A stretch of DNA of 64,000 nucleotides from Sycon ciliatum. Taxonomy: Eukaryota; Porifera; Calcarea; Leucosolenida; Sycettidae. Within the stretch, counting starts at the first letter, position 1. Every line of letters begins with the position of its first letter. The notes under the pieces were generated by a model. It searched no databases, was not told the DNA's origin, and saw nothing but the letters and a program-made list of their open reading frames with translations. Below are positions 1 to 62,059 of this stretch, piece by piece. The stretch lies in the NCBI RefSeq assembly GCF_964019385.1, contig NC_088649.1:21253075-21317074 (forward strand), given 5' to 3'. The position numbers were made by a program, and so were the translations under genes.

Positions 1-1030
1 TCATGCAAGGCAGCTGGTTAAAGTGGAGAGACACGATGTTTGAAGACCTCACTTGGAAAAAACTGTTGTACGAAGGCTACGGGAGAACTTTCTCCTTTCA
101 ACTAAACTGTGTATTAAACACACTACCAACAGTTGACAATCTGAGGAGGTAGGGTAACTCTGTGGTCGAACAACAATGCCCTCTATGCAACAGGCAAGCT
201 ACGCTCCGTCACATATTATCAGCATGTCCAACAGCCCTCCACCAGGGCAGATATATCTGGCGCCACGACAACGTACTGAAATGCATAGTAAAACTAGTAA
301 ACGAAACCATCCAAACTTATCAAAAGGCCACGGCATCAGCAGAAACGCAGAGTAATCAGAAGAGAATTGATTACATAACTTTCTGCAAGGCAGGAGAGAA
401 TCTCCCCAAACAGCCCCCCTCCCAACGCAAACGGCTAAATGACCAATTCGTAACTAGCTCAGCAGACTGGCAGGTCCTGGTGGACATGAAGGATGAGAAA
501 CTTGTTTTCCCCCACTTCATAGCACCTACAACCTGTCGTCCAGACATAGTGCTCTTCAACAAAGAATTGAGAAGAGTTCTGTGGCTGGAACTCACGGTAT
601 GTAGTGAAGATCGCTTTGCACAATCGCGCGAAATCAAAATCGAATGCTATCGTCACCTTCATAACGCGTGTGTAAGGAATGGCTGGGAGACGGAAAGTCA
701 CACAGCAGAGGTGGGAGCGAGAGGCGCCATATCCACCAGCTTGGATTCCTTCGCGAGATCCTTGCGCTGCACTAAGGAACAGCGCAGGCTCTTGCGGAGG
801 AATTGTCGCCAAGCAGCGCTGAACTCAAGCTATGTCCTATGGCTAAAGGCGAAGGGAGCGAACATGGCGCGACTGGCCGTTGTATTAAAACTGTTTGGTG
901 AACCTGTTGTAGAGCACTTGGTGGGCGATCGGCCACCCAGCGAGGATAGTTGGACGTCCTTAAAATCAAGATTTGAACTCGCCATTCCGGCCTCTAAAGG
1001 GCCGGGGGTGGACGATCGCCAACCTTGCCA
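1..1030 (+). pseudogene. 3' part of an R2-type non-LTR retrotransposon ORF (zinc finger plus restriction-like endonuclease)
   Basis: One frame is open from base 3 to beyond 1000 except for a TAG at 150-152. Reading through it, the protein contains CPLCNRQATLRHILSAC (C-x2-C-x7-H-x4-C), followed about 110 residues later by CRPDIVL and WLELTVCSE. That order, a CCHC finger and then an RPD...E motif, is typical of the C-terminus of R2/NeSL-type LINEs, where it forms a DNA-nicking restriction-like endonuclease. The reverse transcriptase would lie upstream, outside the window. The TAG falls where a Trp codon seems likely (inference), so the copy is probably dead. The frame stays nominally open to a stop at 1254-1256, but its last 50 codons belong to the foldback element that follows. 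Confidence 0.7.
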
Positions 1031-1103
1031 ACCTCTCGTAGTCACTTGTTCTTGTCGAATCGTTATTTTCATAGCCTACTCGACATTCGCTCTACAAATT
1101 ACC

Positions 1104-1536
1104 ATTATAGAAATAAAAACTGCTTTATGGCAGTTTTCTAAAAAAAGTTATTGTGTTCTAGTCCATGGACCTCGTCTAAAAAGTAAGAAATTAACGAAAT
1201 GTGATAGCCGAAAATTAAAATTTCACACAAAACCTCACAATAATCACGACACTTGAAGATCTAATAGTACGGCTTTCAACACTTGTTTATTCCGACACTT
1301 GTACTTGTACAAGTACATGTACTGCGCCAACATGCTTGCATACATGTATGAAAGAGGACCACGAGGGGAAAAGGTCGTCTCGCATCCTGTGTGTGATTAT
1401 TGTGAGGTTTTGTGTGAAATTTTAATTTTCGGCTATCACATTTCGTTAATTTCTTACTTTTTAGACGAGGTCCACGGACTAGAACACAATAACTTTTTTT
1501 AGAAAACTGCCATAAAGCAGTTTTTATTTCTATAAT
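1104..1536. mobile_element. Foldback element with ~145-bp inverted arms
   Basis: Bases 1104-1248 are repeated as reverse complement at 1393-1536 with about one mismatch. The outer ends read ATTATAGAAATAAAAACTGC and its complement. The central 144 bases have no recognisable coding content. No target duplication is clear. It sits immediately after the retrotransposon ORF and supplies that frame's stop codon. It is probably a non-autonomous MITE/foldback of unknown superfamily. Confidence 0.75.
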
Positions 1537-3130
1537 TTCTTTTTTTTTTTTGGCTAAAGGATATAATTGTGTAACAAATGGAATGCCCTAATGATGGCCT
1601 ACATGTAGCGCCTCTGCATGTTATTATTATTTTATTTATTTTACTAGGGTGTTTCCCACAGACCTATGTTCTTCTTACGGCAGCCCCTACATGTATGTGT
1701 ATCATATCAAATTCAATACCGTATTACACGCATTGATGTGCAAGCCTTTTCTTGCAGAAAATGGAACTAGTCTTGCATACATGTATTCATGTTCTTCTGC
1801 AGGGGAATCATATGGGTCGTGGCGGTGATACTTTTTTTATACGCAAGTCATTCTGTGGATGTTGCCGAATTTCATGACTGTCATAAAATTGTCTTGTCTT
1901 TCAGAAAATTCAGATGTCCACACCCTAAATCACATTTACTTGAGAATTGTAACCAGGTGTGTGCCGCAGATGTTTTTGTTGATTCTGTGTTTATAATTGT
2001 AGTCATGGGTTGTCGTGATAAGGTCATCCGGCATCATATTGTAGTGAAATCGTAATCCTGTTGATGTCGATAAAACTTTTGGAAGTAGTTCAATGACTTC
2101 AAAGTGTCCACGATTGTCTAAAACAACACAGCAAAGTAGGAACAATAAACATGCATTAAAATGTAAACAAATACATCGCTGAGTCCGACACCTCGTTCCA
2201 ACAACTACACTGATCCTGAGGATATAAGGGGCAAGGATATATATTATGGTTTTAGGTACTGAGAGATAAACAAGGCACTCCATAATAGTAAAATGTTACA
2301 CGACTTCGGGGGAGTATGAATGATATCCAGTCAAACCTCTTTAGGACGAACATCAAGGGACCGATGGCATTTGCTCTGTGAATTTGTGTTAACCCTATTT
2401 TATAACGAGTGAATACAATTATTTCTCCAATAGAGACACGAATAGATTTCTTCTACAGCGAAAGATTCTAAGCCGGACCAAACCATTGACTCGTCTTTTA
2501 TGAAACAAATGAGTCACTGAACCTTTCTTTAGCAACATGATGGCAACTGAAACAACAACAGAGAAAATACGATACATGTATAGCACATTCTTGCAGGTAC
2601 TACAAACAGATTGCAGATCGTAATTCTTGCTCTACCGGTACGCAACTTTATTTGGGGCAGTGCAATCTCGGCGCTACTCACAAATCAAACAGCCCAGACT
2701 CGAGTAAACAAATCCAATCGTACGAGATTTTCACGAGACGAGACTGCACCCATTGGCTTGTTTCGTATGAAGCAAACAAGTCACTGAATGCATGAACCTC
2801 TCCATATAATGGAGATTTTCCCTGATATGCGAATTTATTTTGCATACTAGTACTCGGCCAATGCGTCTTTGAACCTTTCCCTCCAGATTGGGAACTGCCA
2901 ACGATGCTATGCCACTGCAAAATTCAGATTCTACCCTATGATCGGAGCACGGAATGCCGGAAGCAATCATGACCAGTGCCTTACTTGTAACGTACCAATG
3001 TACAATGAACATGAGTATTTCGACAACACATCTATTTAAAGCCTCAGCAGCAACATAAGCCTTACCGTCAAGAAGGTGAACTCGCGTTCTTCGGACTGTT
3101 GGCAAGGGCAAGGAGAAACGAATGGATCTA
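1537..3130. other. No recognisable gene
   Basis: Only short open frames are present, the longest being 162 codons on the minus strand at 2731-3219. None has a recognisable motif or a convincing splice context. A short T-run and an ATTATTATTTT stretch lie near 1540-1640. Confidence 0.6.
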
Positions 3131-3455
3131 AATCCGAATAAAATCAGCACACGTTTCCGTAAATGAAAGGGTGAGCATAAGCAAATGAATCGAAGGAAGC
3201 TGGTCAACTCAGAGATCACTTGTCATTGAGTATTCCGTAAAAGGAAGCCTCGACAGCAGAAAAGCTAAATTTAGAAAAGAGATCCTGTCAGCTTTTCCAT
3301 TATTAATTTTATTGTATTCCACCTAAAATCAGCACACTTTTCGTAAATGAAAGAGTCAACACAATTACAAGCAAATGAATCAAAGGGAACTGGTCAACTC
3401 ACCTGTCATTGAGTAATATTCCGTGAAAAGAGGTCTCAGCAGAGCCGAAGCGAAA
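3130..3455. repeat. Diverged direct duplication (~130 bp units)
   Basis: The block around 3138-3262 (AAATCAGCACAC ... CTGGTCAACTCA ... TCATTGAGTA) recurs at about 3324-3447 in the same order with substitutions and small indels. The spacer is about 60 bases. No coding function is seen. Confidence 0.65.
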
Positions 3456-3628
3456 TAAGCCAGGACACGAAATATCCGAAACAGCTCATGCAAGAAGCAG
3501 TTCCAAAGAAGGAAGTTCCTCGCGCATGCACATCCGAAAACGGACTGCACTGCGCGTGTACTGCATGCAACACAATGTCTGCCGTGCACGTGCACAGCAC
3601 GCAGCTACCACGCGTTAGTAGATCTAAT

Positions 3629-3735
3629 ACCGAGCACCTTACGTAGAAACCAGGGAGTCGTATAGACCCCTGGTAGAAACTTACGTAGCCTAAGTGAAGT
3701 ACCGAGCACCTTACGTAGAAACTTACGTAGCATAG
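3629..3735. repeat. Short direct repeats ending in ACGTAGAAAC
   Basis: TACCGAGCACCTTACGTAG occurs at about 3629 and again at about 3700, with further TTACGTAG copies between and after. This is a local 70-bp duplication with palindromic TACGTA cores. Confidence 0.6.
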
Positions 3736-3987
3736 CGGTGTCGTTTTTTCTGCCATGTGAACACAATAATAGAAAAGCTGACAGGATCGCTTTTCTAAAT
3801 ACATCACAACGCAACTACCTGTACATGACACACCATACCATACGGACACAACCACACCCCAACTGTACTGGGGGCCTATCTCTTCGAATTGCATTATATG
3901 AGTTTCTTTTTCCTTTTTTCTTTACCCGTTACTGTCTAAAAAGCAGTCGAAACGGTTTTTATCCACCATTTGATGGTGAGCATTTCC

Positions 3988-4863
3988 CTCTTCTTCTCTT
4001 CTTCTTCTTCTTCTTCTTCTTCTTCTTCTTCTTCTTCTTCTTCTTCTTCTTCTTCTTCTTCTTCTTCTTCTTCTTCTTCTTCTTCTTCTTCTTCTTCTTC
4101 TTCTTCTTCTTCTTCTTCTTCTTCTTCTTCTTCTTCTTCTTCTTCTTCTTCTTCTTCTTCTCTTCTTCTTCTTCTTCTTCTTCTTCTTCTTCTTCTTCTT
4201 CTTCTTCTTCTTCTTCTTCTTCTTCTTCTTCTTCTTCTTCTTCTTCTTCTTCTTCTTCTTCTTCTTCTTCTTCTTTCTTCTTCTTCTTCTTTTCTTTTTT
4301 CTTCTTTTTCTTCTTCTTCTTCTTCTTCTTCTTCTTCTTCTTCTTCTTCTTCTTCTTCTTCTTCTTCTTCTTCTTCTTCTTCTTCTTCTTCTTCTTCTTC
4401 TTCTTCTTCTTCTTCTTCTTCTTCTTCTTCTTCTTCTTCTTCTTCTTCTTCTTCTTCTTCTTCTTCTTCTTCTTCTTCTTCTTCTTCTTCTTCTTCTTCT
4501 TCTTCTTCTTCTTCTTCTTCTTCTTCTTCTTCTTCTTCTTCTTCTTCTTCTTCTTCTTCTTCTCTTCTTCTTCTTCTTCTTCTTCTTCTTCTTCTTCTTC
4601 TTCTTCTTCTTCTTCTTCTTCTTCTTCTTCTTCTTCTTCTTCTTCTTCTTCTTCTTCTTCTTCTTCTTCTTCTTCTTCTTCTTCTTCTTCTTCTTCTTCT
4701 TCTTCTTCTTTTCTTCTTCTTCTTCTTCTTCTTCTTCTTCTTCTTCTTCTTCTTCTTCTTCTTCTTCTCTTCTTCTTCTTCTTCTTCTTCTTCTTTCCTT
4801 CTTCTTCTTCTTTCTTCCTTCTTCTTCTTCTTCTTCTTCTTCTTCTTCTTCTTCTTCTTCTTG
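3988..4863. repeat. Giant (TTC)n / (GAA)n tract, ~875 bp
   Basis: Nearly pure TTC triplets with a few phase slips (near 4160, 4275-4310, 4563, 4710, 4768 and 4796-4820). It continues directly into a TTGG tetranucleotide tail at 4862-4880, which belongs to the 3' end of the minus-strand LINE beside it. The long Phe/Ser/Leu or Lys/Glu/Arg open frames here are repeat artefacts. Uninterrupted purine/pyrimidine asymmetry of this length can form triplex DNA (known for GAA tracts). Confidence 0.95.
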
Positions 4864-6530
4864 TTGGTTGGTTGGTTGGTTTTTATTTCACTTCGCACAT
4901 TCAAACGGGATGACGACCCAATAAAATGACGGCGAAGGCTTAGCCTAGAAGTGGCTATGGAAGAACATAGTAAAAGCTATGGAAGCACATAGTAAGAGAA
5001 TAGGATACTAATAACTGCGGGTAAACGGGGGGAGAGAGAGAATACGATGTATCTGTGATACTACGTGCGGGTTACTGAACTGCACGGGGAGGGAGAGCAG
5101 AGCACATCAGCAGCAACTCGAACTACTCCCTACAGGCGTATGGTACACATGCATGCTTAAACCCAGGTAGCCGGGTAATTGTGCGGACCTCACCAGGGAG
5201 AGCGTTCCACAGCAGAGCACCAGCAACAGAAAATCTCCGCTGACCGCGGCGGCTACGGTTTGCCTGGCTTAGTAGGCCATTTGACTGCTGATGGCGGGTA
5301 GGGGTGCCTTGTGCCGGGGTCAGAAGCTGGGCGAGCACAGGGCTGGTGCGGGCGTTGATGCACCGCCAGATGGTGATCAATATTTTCTGCCTGTAGAGCT
5401 CGCTGACACGGTACAGGGAGGAGCAGTGAGCAGCGGCTGCATGGCTGTCCGGGGCGGGTTGCCATCGATACAGCGGATGGCTCTGTTTTGCGTGGTTTGC
5501 AGTCGTTTCAGTTGACCCTCTCGCATTGCGGCTGAAAAACAGCAGGAGCCATAAAGCAGGTCGGGCATTATGACCGCCTTCACATACACCTGACGAGAGC
5601 GTCTTGATAGGCTTCGGCGTGCCCGCCACAAGGCGCCAATTTTCTTGGCAACCTTGGTGACCACATAGTTTACATGGGTGTCCCAATCTAGGCGATTGTC
5701 AAGGTGAACGCCGAGGTAGCGCGCAGAAGACGCTGAGGGGAGGAGACAGTCGCCGCTTTTGACTGTTACTTCCTGTACATGCTGCTGGGGAGAGATAGTC
5801 AGAACCTGGCTCTTGGTGGCGTTCAAGATAAGGCCTCGGGACTTCAGCCAACCGGCCAGAGCAGTTGCCGCTGTGGTGAGGGTTCTGGACGCTTCCGCCG
5901 CTGAGGCCTGGGAGTCGTACAGGGCTATGTCGTCTGCAAATTGTACACTTGGCACAGGCGAGGAAACCAAAGGGACATCGCGTGTGTATATACTGAAGAG
6001 GACAGGGCCGAGAACAGAGCCTTGGGGCACTCCGCAGGTGCAAGCCAGAGCAGGGCTGGTTGAAGCGAGATGAGGATCTGCTGCTTGCGGCCGGACAAGT
6101 AGTCGACGAACCAACTAAGGGCTTTTCCAGAAATTCCAACCGCAAGGAGGTCTTGAATTAACTTGTCGTGGTGCACTTTATCAAAAGCCTTCGACATGTC
6201 TAATAGGCACAGCCCTGTGGTCTTGCCACTGTCTCTCGCCTTCTGCAGATTATCAGTCAGCACACAGAGGGCGTCTTCCGTGGAACATTTCTTGCGGAAG
6301 GCAAATTGTGTTTCGGGTAATGCCTGGGTCAAGTCCAAATGACGAACTAACTGGTGTTGCACTACCCTCTCCAGCAACTTGGACACTATTGGGAGAAGGG
6401 ATACAGGCCTATAGTTGGTGGGGACTGATGGGTCACCGGCCTTGTACAGTGGCACGACAGACGCCAATTTAAATGCGGATGGAATGGTTCCAGTCCTCAG
6501 CGAGGTGCAGAACAGCACAGCAAGAGAATA
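4864..6530 (-). mobile_element. 5'-truncated CR1/L2-like LINE, copy A
   Basis: On the minus strand the element runs from a truncation at about 6530, where it abuts a GAA tract, through reverse-transcriptase coding sequence to a 3' UTR. The UTR ends in CCGTTTGAATGTGCGAAG, then TGAAATAAAAA and a (CCAA)n tail. The same 3' end is found in copies B (7115-7160) and C (~9250-9302), so the three belong to one family. Tails made of short tandem repeats rather than poly(A) are known in CR1/L2-related LINEs. Confidence 0.8.
5123..6518 (-). pseudogene. Reverse transcriptase of LINE copy A, frameshifted
   Basis: Three overlapping minus-strand frames (6518 down to about 6070, about 6070 to 5425, and about 5425 to 5123) together give one RT with its C-terminal region. 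Seen in order: LYKAGDPSVPTNYRPVSLL, SKAFDKVHHDKL, GVPQGSVLGP, the catalytic QFADDIAL (FADD box), KSQVLTIS, RYLGVHLDNRLDW, and a tail with NALPGEV just before the stop. Two frameshifts are needed, so this copy cannot make a full protein. The first two RT blocks and any apurinic endonuclease domain are missing because of 5' truncation. Family placement (CR1/L2, Jockey superfamily) is by motif style. Confidence 0.85.
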
Positions 6531-6704
6531 TCTTCTTCTTCTTCTTCTTCTTCTTCTTCTTCTTCTTCTTCTTCTTCTTCTTCTTCTTCTTCTTCTTCTT
6601 CTTCTTCTTCTTCTTCTTCTTCTTTTCTTCTTCTTCTTCTTTCTTCTTCTTCTTCTTCTTCTTCTTCTTCTTCTTCTTCTTCTTCTTCTTCTTCTTCTTC
6701 TTCT

Positions 6705-6749
<45 letters not shown>

Positions 6750-7114
6750 TTCTTCTTCTTCTTCTTCTTCTTCTTCTTCTTCTTCTTCTTCTTCTTCTCT
6801 TCTTCTTCTTCTTCTTCTTCTTCTTCTTCTTCTTCTTCTTCTTCTTCTTCTTCTTCTTCTTCTTCTTCTTCTTCTTCTTCTTCTTCTTCTTCTTCTTCTT
6901 CTTCTTCTTCTTCTTCTTCTTCTTCTTCTTCTTCTTCTTCTCTTCTTCTTCTTCTTCTTCTTCTTCTTCTTCTTCTTCTTCTTCTTCTTCTTCTTCTTCT
7001 TCTTCTTCTTCTTCTTCTTCTTCTTCTTCTTCTTCTTCTTCTTCTTCTTCTTCTTCTTCTTCTTCTTCTTCTTCTTCTTCTTCTTCTTCTTCTTCTTCTT
7101 CTTCCTTCTTCTTG
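6531..7114. repeat. Second giant (TTC)n / (GAA)n tract, ~580 bp
   Basis: TTC triplets with phase slips near 6625, 6640, 6704, 6725, 6798 and 6940. On the minus strand it lies between the 3' tail of LINE copy B and the 5' truncation point of LINE copy A, so one tract is bounded by LINE sequence on both sides. Confidence 0.95.
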
Positions 7115-7160
7115 ATTGATTGATTGATTGATTTTATTTTACTTCGCAAGTTCAAACGGG
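7115..7160 (-). mobile_element. 3' end of LINE copy B
   Basis: Minus strand: CCCGTTTGAACTTGCGAAG, then TAAAATAAAA and a (TCAA)n tail of about five units that runs straight into the GAA tract. The rest of the copy is hidden by the assembly gap at 7161-7360. Confidence 0.75.
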
Positions 7161-31323: not shown

Positions 31324-32574
31324 TTAAAGGGGAAGTTAAGGCAAAAATTAAAATTTCACCAGTTGTAGTCTTCGGGGTGCTGAGTCGAATGGTCGTGGTC
31401 CGCATGGCTGTTTCCACTTGGCCATCTAACAATATGGCGGCTTTTGCGCCGTTTTTGACAAATCCCAACGGTATTTTATAATACGAAGCGAATTATTACA
31501 TTTTCACATCGAAACCATGACGAACCGAATTTTTGTACTTGCTGACACGCGCGTCAGACGCGTCCTCGATCGCCTCCAAAAAATTTTGTGAGGAAAGAGA
31601 TTGAGATGAGAACAAAGGAAACAATCTGAATTATTTTGAGAGTAGAGAAAGCTAAAAGAGCTCGATGGAAGGCCGAGAATTTCAGATAGGCCAGCAAACA
31701 AGATGCAGAGATACACTAACTTTACTGTGAGGATTTCCTCTTCCTGCTGACTGGACGGAGCGACTCGTGTTGTGGGAGAGTTGCAATCAAATGCGTCTGT
31801 GCAACAGACTTGAGGCGCTCCAAGGGATTGCGGATGGCCTCGTGGTGTCTCCTTAGCTCGTTGAAGCGGGCGTGAATGCTCTCACTCCCTTGCTCTGCGA
31901 GGAGACCAAGACCAACGCCTCGCCGTCGGATGGACGGCACGACATGCACCTCCAACATGTGCAATTTCGGCGTGATGTGGCCGAGCTTTTTGCTGACGAC
32001 GATATCTCGGCATGCAGTCATAAATGTCTCCACCAAGCCTTCTAGCTTGGATATGGTGGCCTCGTCCACAGGCCTGCAGTGGCTGAAGAGGGCAGTGCAC
32101 TCGCCATACAGGGACATCAGGTGCTGGTAATCCTCATGAATTCGATTTGCCTCTGGGAGCAGCAGAGCAGCAGCGGCGCACGAGAAGCTACTGCAGATAA
32201 ATGTGCTGGGGTTATTTCAGTTGTCACTGCTGGCTGAAGAGCTATGTGCACATGGTTGCCCACAAAAGCACCTCCATGGTATGCTTGCCTATCGATTCCA
32301 TTGCGCTGGACAACTGGCTCGATGCTTGCTCAACATGGCCCCTCACACTTTTTGTTCTGTTTTATTGCGGCCATTTGGTCGGTGAGTGACTGTCTCCACG
32401 CAAGCAATACAGTACGGCGTGCATCACCATTCTTCCACTGGTCTTGTAGGTGTTGTGTCACGCCCTCCACTGTGGCAGCAGGTATCAAGCTGAGAAAAGA
32501 GAACAGTGTACTGGACTTGCTGCTGCACTACATGTAGTTGTTGGGTAACTGCAGAAATCTCCTCATCCAATGGC

Positions 32575-32855
32575 TGCAAGGATGACAGTGGCAGCAGGAA
32601 CGCCTGCAGGAGCGACAGTGGCTGCAGGAGCAGCTGCAGGGACGGCAGTGGCAGCAAGGACGGCAGTGGCAGCAAGGACGGCAGTGGCAGCAGGAACGGC
32701 TGCAAGGACGGCTGCAGGGACGGCAGCAGGAACGACTGCAGGGACGGCTGCAGGGATGGCAGTGGCAGCAGGAACGACGGCAGTGGCAGCAGAAACAGCG
32801 GCGGTGTCTGCTGTAGTAGCAACGGCGGCAGGAACGGCGGTGTCTGCAGCAGCTG
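32575..32855. repeat. GC-rich minisatellite inside the transposase
   Basis: Imperfect 9-18 bp units of GGCAGTGGCAGCAGGAAC and GACGGCTGCAGG type. On the minus strand it reads as an Ala/Pro/Val/Thr-rich run (VPAATAVPAA) inserted after LKALDIELA. Confidence 0.85.
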
Positions 32856-33767
32856 TTCTTCTGGCAAGCTCAATGTCGAGGGCTTTGAGCTCAGCCTGAA
32901 AAGCAGTCAGCATCCATGGGAAAATACCCAGATCCAGATGAAGAGCCGCGATAACAACATTCTCCTCGGGAATAGGTAAGATCACTGGACGTATGCTGTT
33001 GTTGTAGTTCTTTGCATTCTTTAGATTTGAGCCACTGTTCGTGAATCCAGTGAAATCGTTGTACAGAGTTTCTAGTGTTCTGCTGGTAGAATCGGCATCT
33101 GGGTTTAGGGCTGGTGGAATGTCCATATTCTTCTTCTGACATAGACAGTGTAAGCATGGTCGGTGCCACTGGACCCCGACAAACCATATGCTTTCGTTTG
33201 ATATTCGTAGTCGCCAAAGAAAAACAATTTGAACGACTTGTTCTTCCATGTTGCTGTTGTTTGCAGATCTCTGACCTCGTCACGATAGACTCCTAGCGCG
33301 GTTTCAAGGTTCGATGGCGTGTCTTGTGCCTCGAAGATGCAAATCGGGATAGTGTTGAGGAGTGAATTCGGCCGCTGCACATTCACGATCTGCAGGACAA
33401 ACTTGAAAGATCCTCCGCCGTGATCACCACCGAGTTTGATCCACAGTGGACGGACCAGTTCGCAAGCAGTTGACAGAACAGGTCGCTTGGCTTTGCCAGT
33501 TCTGAAGCACGCAGGGTATGTTGGCAGGCTGGACACTGCGCACCGTTAGTTAACGTGTGGCATATGCATTTCGTGCAAAATACTCTAGAACAGCATGGTG
33601 ACCGAACACCATTGCTCGGCATGCTGCGGCAGATCATGCATTGTACTGTGGCTGCTGCACTGCTGTCGGCAAATCTTGACATAGTCAAATTGCACTCTGC
33701 TTCATAATCAGGTGCAGATATGTCATACGCCTCACTTTCAGGTATATCCATGCTATTGCTAGATGCA

Positions 33768-33840
33768 TAGGGTTTACCGGGTGTTAGCGGCCGTCGTGAG
33801 TTCCCTTCGGGAACGGACACGATAATTTACTTTTTACTTT
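33768..33840. mobile_element. 73-bp retroposed SINE 3' end with a 14-bp target duplication
   Basis: TAGGGTTTACCGGGTGTTAG through ACGGACACGATAATTTA equals the 3' end of the SINE at 19688-19760. The target duplication TATTGCTAGATGCA lies on both sides (33754-33767 and 33841-33854). It interrupts the transposase between the GRPSKR segment and the RING. Confidence 0.85.
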
Positions 33841-34758
33841 TATTGCTAGATGCACATGCACTGCTACTGCTTGATGTCATTTTTGCTGCATGCTCCGCTT
33901 GCTGTTTTTATCCGTTTGCTTGGTCGGCCACCCTTCGATTTTTCTTGAAACTTGGTGCAGACCCTGCGAATCACAGGTTCAGGTCTTTTCTAACTAAATG
34001 TTGCCCCTTGTCCACAACCACCGCCACTGGGATTGAACTTCTCTGTGCTCTGTGATCTCTTCAGCACTCTTTGGCAAAGAGCACAGATATATGTTGGGTG
34101 AATGGTAGGGTCGTCATTACAAACATCAATACTGAATACGTTTTTCATCGTTTCAGTGTAGTCAGACACTGGATATCTCGTCTGTTGGGAGCACGCAGTA
34201 AATTTTGCGCCTCCAACACGGCATAGATGCTGTAAATGCGCTGCATGGTGCTCCATGTCGTGCGATGCGTCGCACATGTGCATATCTCTCACTGGAAACA
34301 GAGAAAAGTAAAGGCCCATCGTATTTTTGATTTCACCATCGTATTCAAAAGAACTTGCGAAAATATAACGGACAACTACCCGAGGATGCGAGGAAAACCT
34401 CGAGTGGTGACTGAATAACTCCAGAAGACGTACCACGAGCGTGATGAAGGTAGCTAACAATATACTGACAGCAATTTCAGTCGATAATTCCACTGCGCCA
34501 AAACAGAAAGCAACTTCCTTCTCCTTCGTCCGATCAAGGAATGTTTGGTACCAAAATGTTGCTGTGCGCGTCAGCTTTCCACTCCCGCGGATTTAGTATC
34601 AAAAATGTGGGGCTAGCGGCGGTAAATCGCGGAAGAATGATAGCAACTCACCTTAATCTCAACGTAAAAATGATTAATCTTTGATTTTTTGCAAAAATCA
34701 GCGGGTACCCCCCGCCATGTTAGATGGCCAAAAATCGCTGGCTGAAACAGCCGTGTCC

Positions 34759-35465
34759 GAGGAAGCTGAGACGCTCCCTTCCTACTTGAATCCCAATCGA
34801 ACTCGCGCACTTCCACCGAAACTGGGTGACTGCGCCCTACTAGATGGGGATTTGTATGCAAAATGTCACTAAAAGCGCCATTTCGTTCTTATAAAAGCAC
34901 GGATGACCGCGATTGGCCCATATGTTGTAGTCTTTTGGACGCTGCGTCGACTGGTTTTGGTCCGAAAAGGCTGCGATGCAGCATTCCTCCTTTATTCCCA
35001 ATCGAACATGGTTGAACAAGTGGTCACGTGCTCCTGCGTACGCCAGTCACCTGGCCACCGTGCCTGCAGGGTACAACTTACTAGCCTGTTTGACCTTTTT
35101 TGGGTGCAGTCCTGTCACTCGAGTTGAACCTTGGTGTGAAAGTTGTCGCCTGCTGGCGTGATGACCAGGTGATTTGGGCACCCAGGAGCACGTGACCGCT
35201 TGTTCAAGCATGTTCGATTGGGAATAAAGGAGGAACGCTGCATCGCAGCCTTTTCGGACCAAAACCAGTCGACGCAGCGTCCAAAAGACTACAACATATG
35301 GGCCAGTCGCGGTCATCCGTGCTTTTCTAAGAACGAAATGGCGCTTTTAGTGACATTTTGCATACAAATCCCCATCTAGTAGGGCGCAGTCACCCAGTTT
35401 CGGTGGAAGTGCGCGAGTTCGATTGGAATTCAAGTAGGAAGGGAGCGTCTCAGCTTCCTCGGACC
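34759..35465. mobile_element. Foldback inserted in the right end of the RAG1-like transposon
   Basis: Arms of about 300 bases (34759-35055 and 35166-35465) are reverse complements with few changes. They begin at GAGGAAGCTGAGACGCTCCC and contain GACGCTGCGTCGACTGGTTT, a motif related to the TTAA-element ends nearby. Comparison with the left end shows the host repeat resuming on both sides. Confidence 0.7.
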
Positions 35466-35598
35466 ACGACCATTCGACTCAGCACCCCGAAGACTACAAC
35501 TGGTGAAATTTTAATTTTTGCCTTAACTTCCCCTTTAACGCCGCAAGTGTTAATTAAAAAAGAGACATGGACGGAGTAATGCAGTAACTTGCACATAC

Positions 35599-36447: not shown

Positions 36448-36768
36448 TTAGCCTCATAATCTCTGTTAGTATTGGCATAGATGGGGAGACGTTAAAGGGG
36501 AACTACACCCAAAAATCAAAACTTCATGGTCCGTAGAGTTTTGGACGCTGAGTCGAATGGTGAAGGTCCCACTTCGATCCGACCAAGCGTTCCTGAGATA
36601 TCTTCGGTTTAAATTGTACTTTCGGGGGACGCGCCATGACGTCATGCGGCCGCGACACACCCCCAACACACCCTTCTACGTCATTGAGACTTGCTTGCCT
36701 GGGCCAAGCTCAGAAGTACCGGTATTTTCGTATGTGAAAGGAATAGTTCTGACAAAGACGTCCTCACC

Positions 36769-37023
36769 ATGAGCGATTCCGACGTATCAGACGAGCTTGA
36801 AAGCTCAGAGCCTGAGCTGAAAATGTTTGGCTTCGGGCATGAGCCGAAATTTTCAGGAAAGGATATGGCAGCGCAAGCGGTGGCTTCCAATCGGGCTGTA
36901 AATGTGGATGAAGCAGAAATTACTGCAATTGGAGAAGTCGCTCTCCATCAGCAACATCTGGCAACCGGTTGGCTGGGCTATTTCGAAATGAAGCGGCAGC
37001 CAAAGCAGCTCAGACAACCCTGA
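36769..37023 (+). pseudogene. N-terminal fragment of an unidentified transposon protein
   Basis: ATG at 36769 opens MSDSDVSDELESSEPELKMF, then GFGHEPKFSGKDMAAQAVA and a tail to the stop at 37021-37023. An acidic start followed by a Pro/Phe turn resembles first exons of proteins carried by TTAA elements in marine invertebrates, but no domain is certain. Only 85 codons remain, and a splice or frameshift may follow. Confidence 0.35.
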
Positions 37024-37499
37024 CAACCCGTAAGTGTTTTCACAGTATAGTCCTACGTAATGCTCACAAATCGAATCGTTCTCTTCATATCGTAAATTGT
37101 GTGAAATTTTGTATTCGCACAGTACTCAGATCAATAGTCTCCTCACTCGTACTCCTGTACATGGAGTTTGCTGCGTAACATGGCTAGCATTATCTCCGTG
37201 CAAGTCGTGCAATGTGTATCGGTTCACTTGTGCTTTATCTCACATAAGTGGACTGCACTCAATTCGTATTGTGGCGAAATACATTCTCACCTTTTGCATT
37301 ATCACTTAGTCTTTACAGAATGCTGAGACGTTCTCTTGTATTTCACGTAGCTGTGTACCAACAATTACGCTGTGCACTCTAGCAGCAGCAGCAGCACAGT
37401 AGCATATTGAGTGCGTTTTGCCCTACTGTGGTGTCTCATGACTGCATTACCGGAACAGCTCTGTCCTTGATAATCATTCTAAAATGTGTGCACATATCC

Positions 37500-38080
37500 G
37501 CCTGCGCCCCACACACACGCACGCACATGTGCTCACCTTGGTGGGCACATAGTATAGTAGTCACACATGCTCACGCACGCAGACACGCAATTTCACAAGC
37601 GCGTGCGCACACGAGTGCATAAGCATACAAGTGCCTGTGCACATGCTCGTGCACGCACACATGCGCGCACTCATGCACTTGGTTGCATACCCACACATCC
37701 CGCAGGATCACTAACGGCAATGCATCTACTACTTGTCATTCCATGTCCCTCCTGCAAATGGGGAGAGAATGACATAAAGGAGAACACAGAATAGATGACG
37801 TGAATATATTTGGAATGTTATATTACATTACACAAAAGCACACGCATGTGCGCGCACACACACACACTCACGCAAGTGCGCGCGCACACACACTCAGTGT
37901 CACGCGCGTGCGCGCGCACACACACGCGCGTGCACCCACACACACGATAATAATGTCTGTCTCTCACGCGCGTGCGCGCAAACACACTCACGTGCGCGCA
38001 CGGGCGCGCGCACGCACACACTCACGCGCGTGCGAGCGCACACACACACTCACGCGCTTGCACGCATACACACAATAATA
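37500..38080. repeat. CA / CG alternating purine-pyrimidine tract
   Basis: Blocks of CACACACGCG and GCGCGCACAC inside the TTAA transposon. ACACAYAATAATAATGTCTG occurs twice (about 37940 and 38071), showing tandem growth. Such CG/CA alternation favours Z-DNA. A CAG run is at 37381-37395. Confidence 0.9.
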
Positions 38081-38984
38081 ATAATGTCTGGCTCTCATCT
38101 GCATCCATACTGAGAAAACCCAACGAGTTCCCGAATAGGTGTACACCGTTGCCGGTATGTGGACTATCTTCTCTCCTTGAACTGCGGGTCATTGCGTGAT
38201 GTAGCTTATCAGCAGTACATACTGTGTGTTCATACAGGAAAAAAACATGCCAGCTAGAGGCGCTGGCGCTGCAAACAGTCCTTCCTATAACCTTGGGGCG
38301 GTGGCAGTGGTCGTAGCTCAACAGTGAGTCACTGCGACCGATGGTACAGCCGCTCTTGATCTTCTTCCTGTAAAATCAAGAACAGCAATAGCAGACAGGT
38401 TCATCGATCGCACGCAGCATAGCCTAGGGAAACAGGAGATCTACTGCCGTCCACCTCATCAGGCCGGTTTCGAAAAGCTTCACATTTCGTAGTGATGTAG
38501 TCCAAAACAATTCTACAAATGCTTTGGAAAAGAAAGAACTACATACAGTAGCTAGTGTTTTTGAAATATTGCACTCACCTCCGCTTTTCGACTGACACTT
38601 CATAGTGTGGCGTGCGAAAAAGGACGCACCACAGTTTCATCCACCAGCGTCCGCATCGGATGAGTGCCATAATATTCCTCCTGAAAATCCTCCTCTGCCA
38701 AATGGCTGGAACACACGCGAAGGATTTACATTGTAGTCCCTAAATTGTCAAGCAAATAATTCTGCCGCTTGATAGCTGCTATGGTGCACTGCTCGGCCTG
38801 TGCCAAGCACAATCCTTCAGAAATTGGTGCAGGTTCATCCCAGGGGGGTTACCAGTAAGATTATAGTAGCCAACAACACAGCCAGAAGCCATGATGACAC
38901 AAATACCCTCTTCTTCCATGGACAAACAGAAAGAAGATGCGAAATCCCAGTGTTTCTGGATCTGGCCAAATGATCACCAAGTCT
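38081..38984. other. Interior of the TTAA transposon, no gene recognised
   Basis: The minus strand between 38740 and 38580 has codon-like sequence but no complete frame. Confidence 0.4.
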
Positions 38985-39156
38985 CAATGACGTCACGGGT
39001 TTGTGACGTCACGGCACGGACCCGAAAAGGACAATTGCAAACTGATATATCTCAAGAACGCTTGGTCGGATCGAAGTGGGACCTTCACCATTCGACTCAG
39101 CGTCCAAAACTCTACGGACCATGAAGTTTTGATTTTTGGGTGTAGTTCCCCTTTAA

Positions 39157-46569: not shown

Positions 46570-48146
46570 CTAAACCACAAGCCACGTTGAAACACAAGAT
46601 ACACATCATGGTTGGGAAGAATTTTCAAGTCACACCAAGAGCATGAACGATTTTGCCTGCAATACAGTAAGTTAAAAGGCAGTGTCTGTTTGATGAGCGT
46701 TAGCATGCTAACGCGAGTTAGCAGCCAGCCCAGCGAGCTGGCCCAACCTGCACGCATACGCGAGTCACGTGGGCACGCGCCCTTCCAAATCCTGTACAAT
46801 GTCTCTTGCATGTCATTGCTGTTTGGACTTTAGAGCGTGCAACTTGCGGAACACGTGTTCCTAAACAATGTACTTTTGTTAGACTTTCAAGGTCGCATTC
46901 TCGTATCTCTACGTTTCAATTTCAGACTTCAATGACGGCTGTTGGTGCCCGAAACAATGTCGTCGTCTACAGTGGAACGTCGACTGTGAACCTTTAGCTT
47001 GCGGCATCATCAGGTTTCCTGAAATGAACCACGCGATCTCAGCGACCCTTGTTTGTGCCTTGAAAAAATGTCGTCGTCACCAACCGGGGTCTAGCCTCTC
47101 CGGATCGCCTTGCTCTACCTGGCTCCGCCGCCCGCCTACTGGGAACGCAGCGACGGCCACCACGCAGCACCACCACTGCAACAGCAGGCGCGAGCCTGAC
47201 GATCGTAATTCGTATCCAGAGAGGCAAGTTCCTGGACCTGGATTTTCTGTTGGAAGTAACAACGTTAGTTGTCCACTGCCGTCACCACCCCCACCCAGCT
47301 TCTCCTCGCTCTACTTGGATCCGTATCGCCGCTCGCCGCCAGCAGGCCGGACCCTACTTGGAGCGACGACAGCCATATGCGCATGCAGCACCAACAGCAG
47401 GTGGACCTGACTGTCCTATACTCGATCGTGTCCAGAGAGGCGAGTTCGTAGACTTTGATTTCTTGCTGCCCGATACAGTTGCAGTCAGTGCAGCTCCGGC
47501 GACGTTCAACTCCGTAGCCCCTCATATGTTGCTCTTCTGGCGCACTAGCATTTATTTGAATCCGAACCCAGAACTGCGCTTCGTAGGCTGCATGACGGTA
47601 GAACTTGAGTTGAGACCTGGACAGTGTTCATGAATGGTCTGTGTTCCAATGTTCTTCACCGCGTTTCACGAGTGCCTGTTGACGTATTTGGCCACGATTG
47701 TCGCGGCCAATCGCCAGTTCTTGCCATCTAGAAACTGGATGTTATCAATACTCAATCTGCGGACAACTGTTTCTTCCTTTGTGGATTCATCAGCGCAGCA
47801 CAGAGGGAATTAAGCCGAACCTGATAGCAATGGAAAATATAAATCTTCAAAGCCAGGTTATCCATATCAACTTAGGGCAACTGCCCTTCACGGTGTACTG
47901 GAGCAGCACCACCCGCCTGCCAGCAGTGCAGCTCAGTTCACCCACCAGCATTTCCGTGCGCATTTCGTCCCACTCACCAGCACAGATCCGCATCACGTAC
48001 CGCAACCGTGTGCAGCTACTATGCGTACGGCGCTTGTACGTGTCAGCTCAGGCAGTGCTGCCTCCAGTGCCGACAGGAGCACCCCAGGGCTAAGTGTAAG
48101 GCCTCATCAGTAACTGTATAACCACTCTGTTTCTCACTTCTCAAAA

Positions 48147-60810: not shown

Positions 60811-62059
60811 CTAAACCACAAGCCACGTTGAAACACAAGATACACGTCATGGTTGGGAAGAATTTTCAAGTCACACCAAGAGCATGAACGATTTTGCCTG
60901 CAATACAGTAAGTTAAAAGACAGTGTCTGTTTGATGAGCGTTAGCATTCTAACGCAAGTTAGCAGCCAGCCCAGCAAGCTGGCCCAACCTGCACGCATAC
61001 GCGAGTCACGTGGGCACGCGCAAAATCCTGTACAATGTCTCCTGCATGTCATTGCTGTTTGGACTTTAGAGCGTGCAACTTGCGGAACACGTGTTCCTAA
61101 ACAATTTACTCTTGTTAGACTTTCAAGGTCGCATTCTCGTATCTCTACGTTTCATTTTCAGACTTCAATGACGGCTGTTGGTGCCTGAAACAATGTCGTC
61201 GTCTACAGTGGAATGTCGATTGTGAACCTTTAGCTTGCGGCATCATCAGGTTTCCTGAAATGAACCACGCGATCTCAGTGACCCTTGTTTGTGAATTGAA
61301 ACAATGCCGTCGTCACCAACCGGCGTCTAGCCTCTCCGGATCGCCTTGCTCTACCTGGCTCCGCCGCCCGCCTACTGGGAACGCGGCGACGGCCACCATG
61401 CAGCACCACCACTGCAACAGCAGGCGCGAGCCTGACGATCGTAATTCGTATCCAGAGAGGCAAGTTCGTGGACCTGGATTTTCTGTTGGAAGTAACAACG
61501 TTAGTTGTCCACTGCCGTCACCACCGCCACCCAGCTTCTCCTCGCTCTACTTGGATCCGTATCGCCGCTCGCCTCCAGCAGGCCGGACCCTACTTGGAGG
61601 CCGGTTCAGTGACGACAGCCATATGCGCATGCAGCAGCAACAGCAGGTGGACCTGACTGTCCTATACTCGATCGTGTCCAGAGAGGCGAGTTCGTAGACT
61701 TTGATTTCTTGCTGCCCGATACAGTTGCAGTCAGTGCAGCTCCGGCGACGTTCACCTCCGTAGCCCCTCATATGTTGCTCTTCTGGCGCACTAGCATTTA
61801 TTTGAATCCGAACCCAGAACTGCGCTTCGTAGGCTGCATGACGGTAGACCTTGAGTTGAGACCTGGACAGTGTTCATGAATGGTCTGTGTTCCAATGTTC
61901 CTCACCGCGTTTCACGAGTGCCTGTTGACGTATTTGGCCACGATTGTCGCGGCCAATCGCCAGTTCTTGCCACCTAGAAACTGGATGTTATCAATACTCA
62001 ATCTGCGGACAACTGTTTCTCCCTTTGTGGATTCATCAGCGCAGCACAGAGGGAATTAA

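Follow-up and report, generated by a model that had tools for sequence, protein, structure and literature searches.

An internally deleted Chapaev-type transposon with a RAG1-like N-terminal region, nested in a TTAA element of the sponge Sycon ciliatum

The closest described relatives of the element considered here, which lies in a 64,000-nucleotide stretch of the Sycon ciliatum genome (contig NC_088649.1, positions 21,253,075 to 21,317,074; the whole stretch is hereafter called the window), are DNA transposons of the Chapaev superfamily. Their hallmarks, in the passages available of PMC4079192, are target duplications of 3-4 bp, CAC/GTG termini, and the motifs C(2)C, LH, and H(4)H, and in an excerpt of PMC3985635, DUF1280 (PF06918) is equated with the transposase of Chapaev and placed in one group with RAG1. 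Two Chapaev subgroups carry a RAG1-type Chapa domain followed by a RING in the account of Kapitonov and Koonin 2015 (PMC4411706), which, in the sections available, cites Kapitonov and Jurka 2007 and infers a common ancestor in which the two modules had already been joined to the core. A transposon with a RAG1 N-terminal-like protein, N-RAG-TP, has been described in Aplysia (excerpts of PMC8355894 and PMC2996935). Vertebrate RAG relies on bipartite asymmetric signals, whereas invertebrate RAG-like (RAGL) systems are expected to be insensitive to asymmetry, according to part of PMC7204232.

In the window, a RAG1-type zinc region, a GGRPSKR stretch, a RING, and a core with the motifs GGDHGG, GDYE, and EQGSES follow one another on the minus strand of one element, as the original prediction, made from the sequence alone, had proposed for the zinc region, basic stretch (GRPSKR), RING, and core. 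This element, at 31403-34755, is nested in a miniature inverted-repeat transposable element (MITE) flanked by TTAA and has its own 4-bp TCCG duplication. Very probably, it is an internally deleted, non-autonomous cut-and-paste DNA transposon of the Chapaev superfamily, descended from an ancestor with a transposase of ~1,000 aa and presumably moved in trans.

Nesting and coding pieces of the RAG1-N element

The segment 31328-35534 was compared with the host genome (538 Mb, 313 contigs), with 40 of 3,763 candidates scored. Among the 123 matches listed, the genome copies form 2 sets, covering either query positions 1-75 plus 3428-4207, which correspond to the MITE, or parts of ~73-3432, which correspond to the RAG1-N element; at these separate places, the longer inner copies are 95-97% identical and the MITE copies 98-99%. 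The features are listed below in window coordinates, with the strand where one applies and the basis in brackets.

31324-31327: left TTAA target duplication of the outer MITE
31328-31402: left 75 bp of the TTAA MITE, with the first TCCG at its end (genome copies)
31399-31402: TCCG copy 1, target duplication of the inner element (TCCG single in MITE copies)
31403-34755, minus strand: the inner element (3,353 bp), of Chapaev type and with homology to the RAG1 N-terminus; its 5' end reads CACGGCTGTTTCAGCC... and its 3' end, at the low coordinates, CATGGCTGTTTCC...
31403-31439: 3' terminal region of the inner element, with a second block ATGGC from +32; end in copies CACGGCTGTTCCC
31734-32153, minus strand: core piece with H(4)H (LHMLEVH) and the catalytic Glu (EQGSES) (tblastn with L053; motifs)
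32168-32524, minus strand: core piece 5' of the H(4)H piece (tblastn with L053)
32842-33162, minus strand: core piece with C(2)C (CLHC) and LH (ALHLDLGIF), in a frame different from that of the D-D piece (motifs; tblastn with L053)
33165-33446, minus strand: D-D core piece with the Asp motifs GGDHGG and GDYE; PF06918 (DUF1280) (Pfam; tblastn with L053)
33443-33446: internal-deletion junction; residues ~397-645 of an L053-type protein gone (junction sequence in copies; gap between high-scoring segment pairs)
33443-33760, minus strand: RING region and beginning of the next zinc finger (Pfam; PDB search; tblastn with L053)
33755-33854: 74-bp insert with 13-bp direct repeats (TGCATCTAGCAAT) at the boundary of zinc region and RING (probe presence in copies)
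33912-34256, minus strand: RAG1 N-terminal (Chapa) zinc region and GGRPSKR; in-frame stop just below 33990 (Pfam; PDB search; tblastn with L053)
34711-34755: 5' terminal region of the inner element, CACGGCTGTT + 15 nt + TGGCCATCTAACATGGCGG
34756-34759: TCCG copy 2, target duplication of the inner element
34760-35534: 775-bp right part of the TTAA MITE, palindromic
35535-35538: right TTAA target duplication of the outer MITE

The outer element is a palindromic MITE of 850 bp, which we take to be of piggyBac or Kolobok type. TTAA flanks it on both sides in the window and in copies L020 and L021 and on one side only in L023; L022 was identified by alignment. When the 2 window flanks are joined, they align without gaps over 859 nt to L020 (98.7% identical) and L022 (98.0%), and the left 75 bp have copies elsewhere that are 96-100% identical. 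TCCG occurs once in the MITE copies and is doubled in the window, where it brackets the inner element. Because the MITE sites elsewhere are empty and TCCG is duplicated around the inner part, the inner element entered the MITE, and the TTAA is not its own target duplication. A second TTAA-flanked element lies at 36496-39152, with ends ~70% identical to the MITE ends over 74 nt and a longest stop-to-stop frame of 117 aa, and is probably a non-autonomous sister of the MITE.

The coding pieces of the inner element were assigned by tblastn with the protein of L053, the nearest by summed tblastn score of 8 open-frame relatives in the same genome (see below); they are colinear but lie in several frames. 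The zinc piece (34256-33912, minus strand) matches PF12560 (RAG1_imp_bd) with E = 4.5e-10 in the Pfam search, and all 3 PDB sequences that it retrieved with phmmer at E up to 1 are RAG1 (best, 21wb, 3.1e-7). The best Pfam match of the RING piece (33760-33443, minus strand; E = 3.8e-5) is below Pfam's own cut-off; in the PDB search, RAG1 ranks at the top of 94 mostly RING proteins (3jbw, 5.1e-6), closely followed by RNF4 (1.6e-5) and RING2 (3.8e-5). The core piece matches PF06918 with E = 1.2e-12, and the RAG1 catalytic core model, PF12940, matched none of the 7 window pieces at E ≤ 1. A single-sequence structure prediction of the D-D piece (146 aa) was unusable (mean predicted local distance difference test score, 35). 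On the plus strand, no frame within the element exceeds 161 aa, and the one of this length is repetitive; no search for the RAG2 family was made.

Compared with its relatives, the window copy lacks ~250 residues that would lie after the RING and before the first catalytic Asp. It is a non-autonomous, frame-broken copy without a working transposase; of the "transposase" originally announced, the coding pieces stand, and a functional enzyme does not, as the RING-to-core segment is gone and the frames are broken.

Assignment to Chapaev, element ends, and family history

All of the Chapaev hallmarks were found. The termini read 5'-CAC...GTG-3', the low-coordinate end of the window copy itself being CAT where the copies have CAC. 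A DDE core with C(2)C, LH, and H(4)H is present in both the window pieces and the relatives, and PF06918 was detected in the window and in 8/8 relatives. The order of a Chapa zinc region followed by a RING, typical of the Chapa+RING subgroup, was likewise observed, with the RING model found in 7 of the 8 relatives (weak in L047, none in L046). Given these hallmarks, and since Chapaevs combining Chapa and RING were published in 2015 (PMC4411706, in the sections available), the kind of element is already known.

Target duplications were counted over 9 distinct insertions of the inner family, leaving out L002 and L005 (degraded or cut ends), L011, L012, L016-L019, and also L009 and L010, which are tandem duplicates of L008. 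A perfect 4-bp duplication flanks 6 of the 9: the window copy (TCCG), L004 (TAGC), L007 (GACC, provided that its altered end is read to GTG), L008 (CGGT), L013 (TACA), and L015 (CGTT). In 5 other families with both ends found, the ends being chosen partly by the duplication, it is 4 bp in 4 (L046, L048, L049, and L050). Altogether, 10 of the 14 insertions counted have 4 bp and 2 have 5 bp.

Several observations weigh against the assignment. The duplications of L006, from the inner family, and of L051 measure 5 bp rather than 4 bp; L014 has none; and the ends of L003 are degraded, as are those of the uncounted L002 and L005. The family closest by summed score, L053, shares the 5' decamer, but no matching 3' end was found within ~2.35 kb past the frame, which makes its whole-element structure provisional. 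The Chapaev class was assigned from the profile match and the hallmarks, and the action of a transposase on these ends is deduced from sequence.

The ends of the inner family are CACGGCTG...CAGCCGTG. Families with ends found have CACKGCTGTY in common, with the exception of the 5' end of L052, which starts with CCC. The two ends appear to be unequal in internal spacing. ATGGC starts at +32 in 7/7 of the 3' ends; among 8 of the 5' ends, it starts at +38 in 2, at +39 in 2, and at +46 in L049, and none was seen in L046, L048, and L051. This count includes the partnerless ends of L045 (3'), L052 (5'), and L053 (5') and leaves out a 5' candidate of L047, likewise partnerless; the remaining ends sought, those of L045 (5'), L047, L052 (3'), and L053 (3'), were not found. 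The end pair of L050, which ranked third, was chosen because it has the shared decamer. Compared with each other, the 5' and 3' ends agree best at a shift of 9 nt in the window family, 9 in L046, 10 in L048, 14 in L049, and 6 in L050, with none clear in L051. Pooled identity peaks at shifts of 10 (33%) and 6 (32%) and is 20-25% at most others, as calculated with no shuffle control, and the ends are not independent because some families are closely related (L045 and L048 are 55% identical). A full-text literature search returned no paper with unequal Chapaev ends as its subject by title, which is weak evidence of novelty, and the available part of PMC9435367 leaves Chapaev unmentioned.

The copies share more than their ends. 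A 37-nt sequence spanning the deletion junction is identical in 16/16 copies L001-L016 and was not found in L017-L019; the missing middle, searched with the segment of 3 relatives, is present in 1 of the 19 copies, L017, the other match, in L008 (23 aa, E = 0.93), being at chance level. The 74-bp insert is found in 13 of the 16 junction copies (L001-L013) and not in L014-L018; L019 stops short of that place. Frame breaks differ from copy to copy. The insert, with its 13-bp repeats, resembles a very short retroposon end, and a similar tail lies 5' of the L050 frame. On contig C4 the inner element occurs 3 times (L008-L010, at ~3250508, 3259082, and 3267656) with a spacing of 8,574 bp and the same flanks, and these copies represent a tandem duplication of the element-bearing locus.

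The proposed history begins with a transposase of ~1,000 aa that would have comprised the RAG1-type zinc region, the basic stretch, the RING and a zinc finger, the middle, and a DDE core of RNase H type that includes C(2)C/H(4)H. Loss of the middle segment came first, and the short insert afterwards parted the zinc region from the RING. The family then spread, presumably as termini mobilized in trans, for which the transposase of relatives with ends CACGGCTGTT...AACAGCCGTG is the most likely source, and one copy landed at TCCG within the TTAA MITE. In this order of events (full element, deletion, insert, spread, and MITE entry), copies deficient in coding capacity multiplied, which fits movement in trans. 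Transposition would be cut-and-paste with RAG/Transib-like end cleavage, and the zinc region and RING may serve in DNA binding, dimerization, or self-ubiquitination.

Open-frame relatives and the relation to RAG1

The genome holds at least 122 PF12560 matches at E ≤ 0.001, each of which passes the curated cut-off; the figure is a minimum, as it rests on 137 scored candidates out of 255 and the list does not contain the window copy. Among the 122 listed, 44 have open frames of at least 997 aa. A frame of 1,979 aa on contig C5 was rejected, as it runs into an assembly gap of N. Of 9 of the 44 places, read fully, 8 contain no N and span the protein from zinc region through last core motif, and the ninth, L052, loses the C-terminus. 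The open frames of these relatives are 1,014-1,152 aa long. Their alignment (37-55% identity to the first row) shows a common layout of zinc region, basic stretch, RING, further zinc finger, middle, and core. PF12560 accompanies PF06918 in 8/8, and PF12940 gave no match in these 8 at E ≤ 1. In the NCBIfam search of 4 proteins, the RING region gave a weak match to rad18, and all other matches were at chance level. Neither the 40 pattern matches in viral contigs nor the 25 in bacterial and archaeal genomes were confirmed. The family of L053 (L024-L037, L041, and L042; L024 corresponds to the L053 locus) seems to be of recent origin: over the 5' part, 15 further loci share 97-99% identity with L053, and the 5' flanks differ at all 14 loci where they were compared. 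Many frames of 1,152 aa occur in this family.

RAG1 is matched continuously over positions 97-377 by a profile of all 9 relatives (9jpu, E = 3.6e-26), with other RING proteins following from 7.5e-11; further stretches around the second Asp/CxxC and the HxxxxH/Glu regions have independent E-values of 1.3e4 and 27 and are no evidence alone. A profile built from the middle and core of 8 relatives retrieved 2 unrelated PDB chains (E = 0.67 and 0.84) and, up to E = 10, neither RAG1 nor Transib, which bears out the claim that the core is unlike those of RAG1 and Transib in sequence; it is of the known Chapaev kind. In the genome, PF12940 gave a single match among 7 candidates (26.4 bits, E = 3.6e-4), inside the C-terminal part of an L046-related copy of Chapaev type. 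The order of motifs in RAG1, D-D-CxxC-LH-HxxxxH-E, is also that of the present cores, the alignment here being weak and non-significant. By sequence, the N-terminal part is thus a clear relative of RAG1, and the core at most a distant one.

Among 8 families, conservation is 33% in the N-terminal part, 41% in the core, and 42% in the middle, and distances in the N-terminal part and the core agree (r = 0.68, P = 0.002, 5,000 permutations; L052, with its lost C-terminus, excluded), so that no exchange is visible among these families. The N-terminal part of RAG1 is 26% identical to that of the families, compared with 33.5% among themselves, or 20% and 27.5%, respectively, without the Cys/His columns; in an unrooted tree, RAG1 joins L046 with a modest support of 0.87. 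Joint separation from RAG1 would have left the slower core easier to recognize, and the opposite is seen, which favors module exchange as the source of the RAG1 N-terminal part. The exchange remains unproven: the RAG1 core may have changed faster, zinc ligands aid detection of the N-terminal part, and the comparison covers one genome with no RAG1 core aligned. The contrast in rates points in the direction opposite to the common-ancestor fusion inferred in the available sections of PMC4411706. The fuller proposition, that RAG1 obtained its zinc region, RING, and next zinc finger by exchange with a Chapaev-type transposon and that this lineage already had bipartite, unequal ends as a counterpart of the 12/23 rule, is tentative, and we consider it rather unlikely as a whole.

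Other readings of the window copy fare poorly beside that of a deleted Chapaev-type element. The TTAA flanks and inverted ends that bracket 31328-35534 gave rise to the original prediction of a single ~4.2-kb TTAA transposon with a RAG1 N-terminus on its transposase; however, both parts occur together only in the window among the 123 listed matches, the MITE copies are empty at the insertion point, and a separate 4-bp duplication flanks the inner part, which refutes this reading and leaves it virtually no credence. The ends said to be related to a second local family are likewise those of the MITE, which the element at 36496-39152 resembles, and not those of the RAG1-N element; of the pieces assembled in that prediction, therefore, the ends belong to a different element and the coding pieces do not. 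Colinear pieces in several frames could also be expected of a working gene with introns, the frame changes being splice sites. This is very unlikely, since in the 8 fully read relatives a single frame covers the zinc region, the last motif, and all that lies between them, the window copy lacks the middle segment altogether instead of having it interrupted, and the breaks vary among copies.

The one-stretch alignment to RAG1 and the genome locus passing PF12940 might, in turn, suggest a true RAGL/ProtoRAG or Transib element, or the missing TransibVDJ ancestor with a RING. That locus, however, is the sole match among its candidates and a Chapaev-type C-terminus, the middle and core profile retrieves neither RAG1 nor Transib, PF06918 is present in every one of the 8 relatives, and the duplications are mostly 4 bp as opposed to the 5 bp given for RAGL in part of PMC7204232, making this reading extremely unlikely. 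The reading of a non-autonomous Chapaev element accommodates the nesting, the 4-bp duplication, the common ends, deletion, and insert, and the open-frame relatives, all of which were directly observed.

Elsewhere in the window, very long simple repeats of GAA/GGA type at 3900-7140 produce spurious long open frames and adjoin fragments of a non-LTR (long terminal repeat) reverse transcriptase and a stretch of N, and 2 closely similar stretches (46883-47633 and 61119-61697) lie ~14 kb apart.

Comparison with described systems

In itself, the window copy is ordinary, a decayed non-autonomous relative of a described transposon type. What matters is its genomic context, with at least 122 RAG1 N-terminal matches, open-frame transposases of ~1,000 aa in several divergent families, and one weak RAG1-core match. 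The relevance to the origin of the RAG1 N-terminus claimed at the outset held up: the origin of the zinc and RING region becomes testable by rates, trees, and biochemistry in this genome, which also offers an outgroup for comparing unequal transposon ends with the 12/23 rule. Of the 2 leads, the unequal bipartite ends and the RAG1-like N-terminal part with a non-RAG1 core, neither is proven.

The likeness to TTAA MITEs of piggyBac or Kolobok type is confined to the outer element, which does not carry the transposase; the RAG1-N element has no TTAA duplication of its own. N-RAG-TP of Aplysia, reportedly the work of Panchin and Moroz, has in common with the present element a RAG1 N-terminal-like protein encoded on a transposon, the 2 being likened by description in the excerpts available and not by sequence. 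Transib elements, defined by a Transib core, no RAG1 N-terminal part, and a 5-bp duplication, do not correspond to what was found. RAG1 of jawed vertebrates and RAGL/ProtoRAG share with the present families the N-terminal zinc region, the RING with the next zinc finger, and CAC ends; they differ in that the middle and core are not detectably similar by sequence alone, PF12940 being absent from the 8 relatives and 7 window pieces apart from the one weak genome match, and in the length of the duplications (here 4 bp in 10/14 and 5 bp in 2/14, as opposed to 5 bp). The Chapa+RING Chapaevs, as described in the available sections of PMC4411706, are the closest: they have the same Chapa/RAG1-N zinc region followed by a RING, a core of the PF06918 kind, CAC/GTG ends, and mostly 4-bp duplications. 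The window copy differs from them in being frame-broken and without the RING-to-core segment, and the unequal end spacing of the present families finds no mention in those sections.

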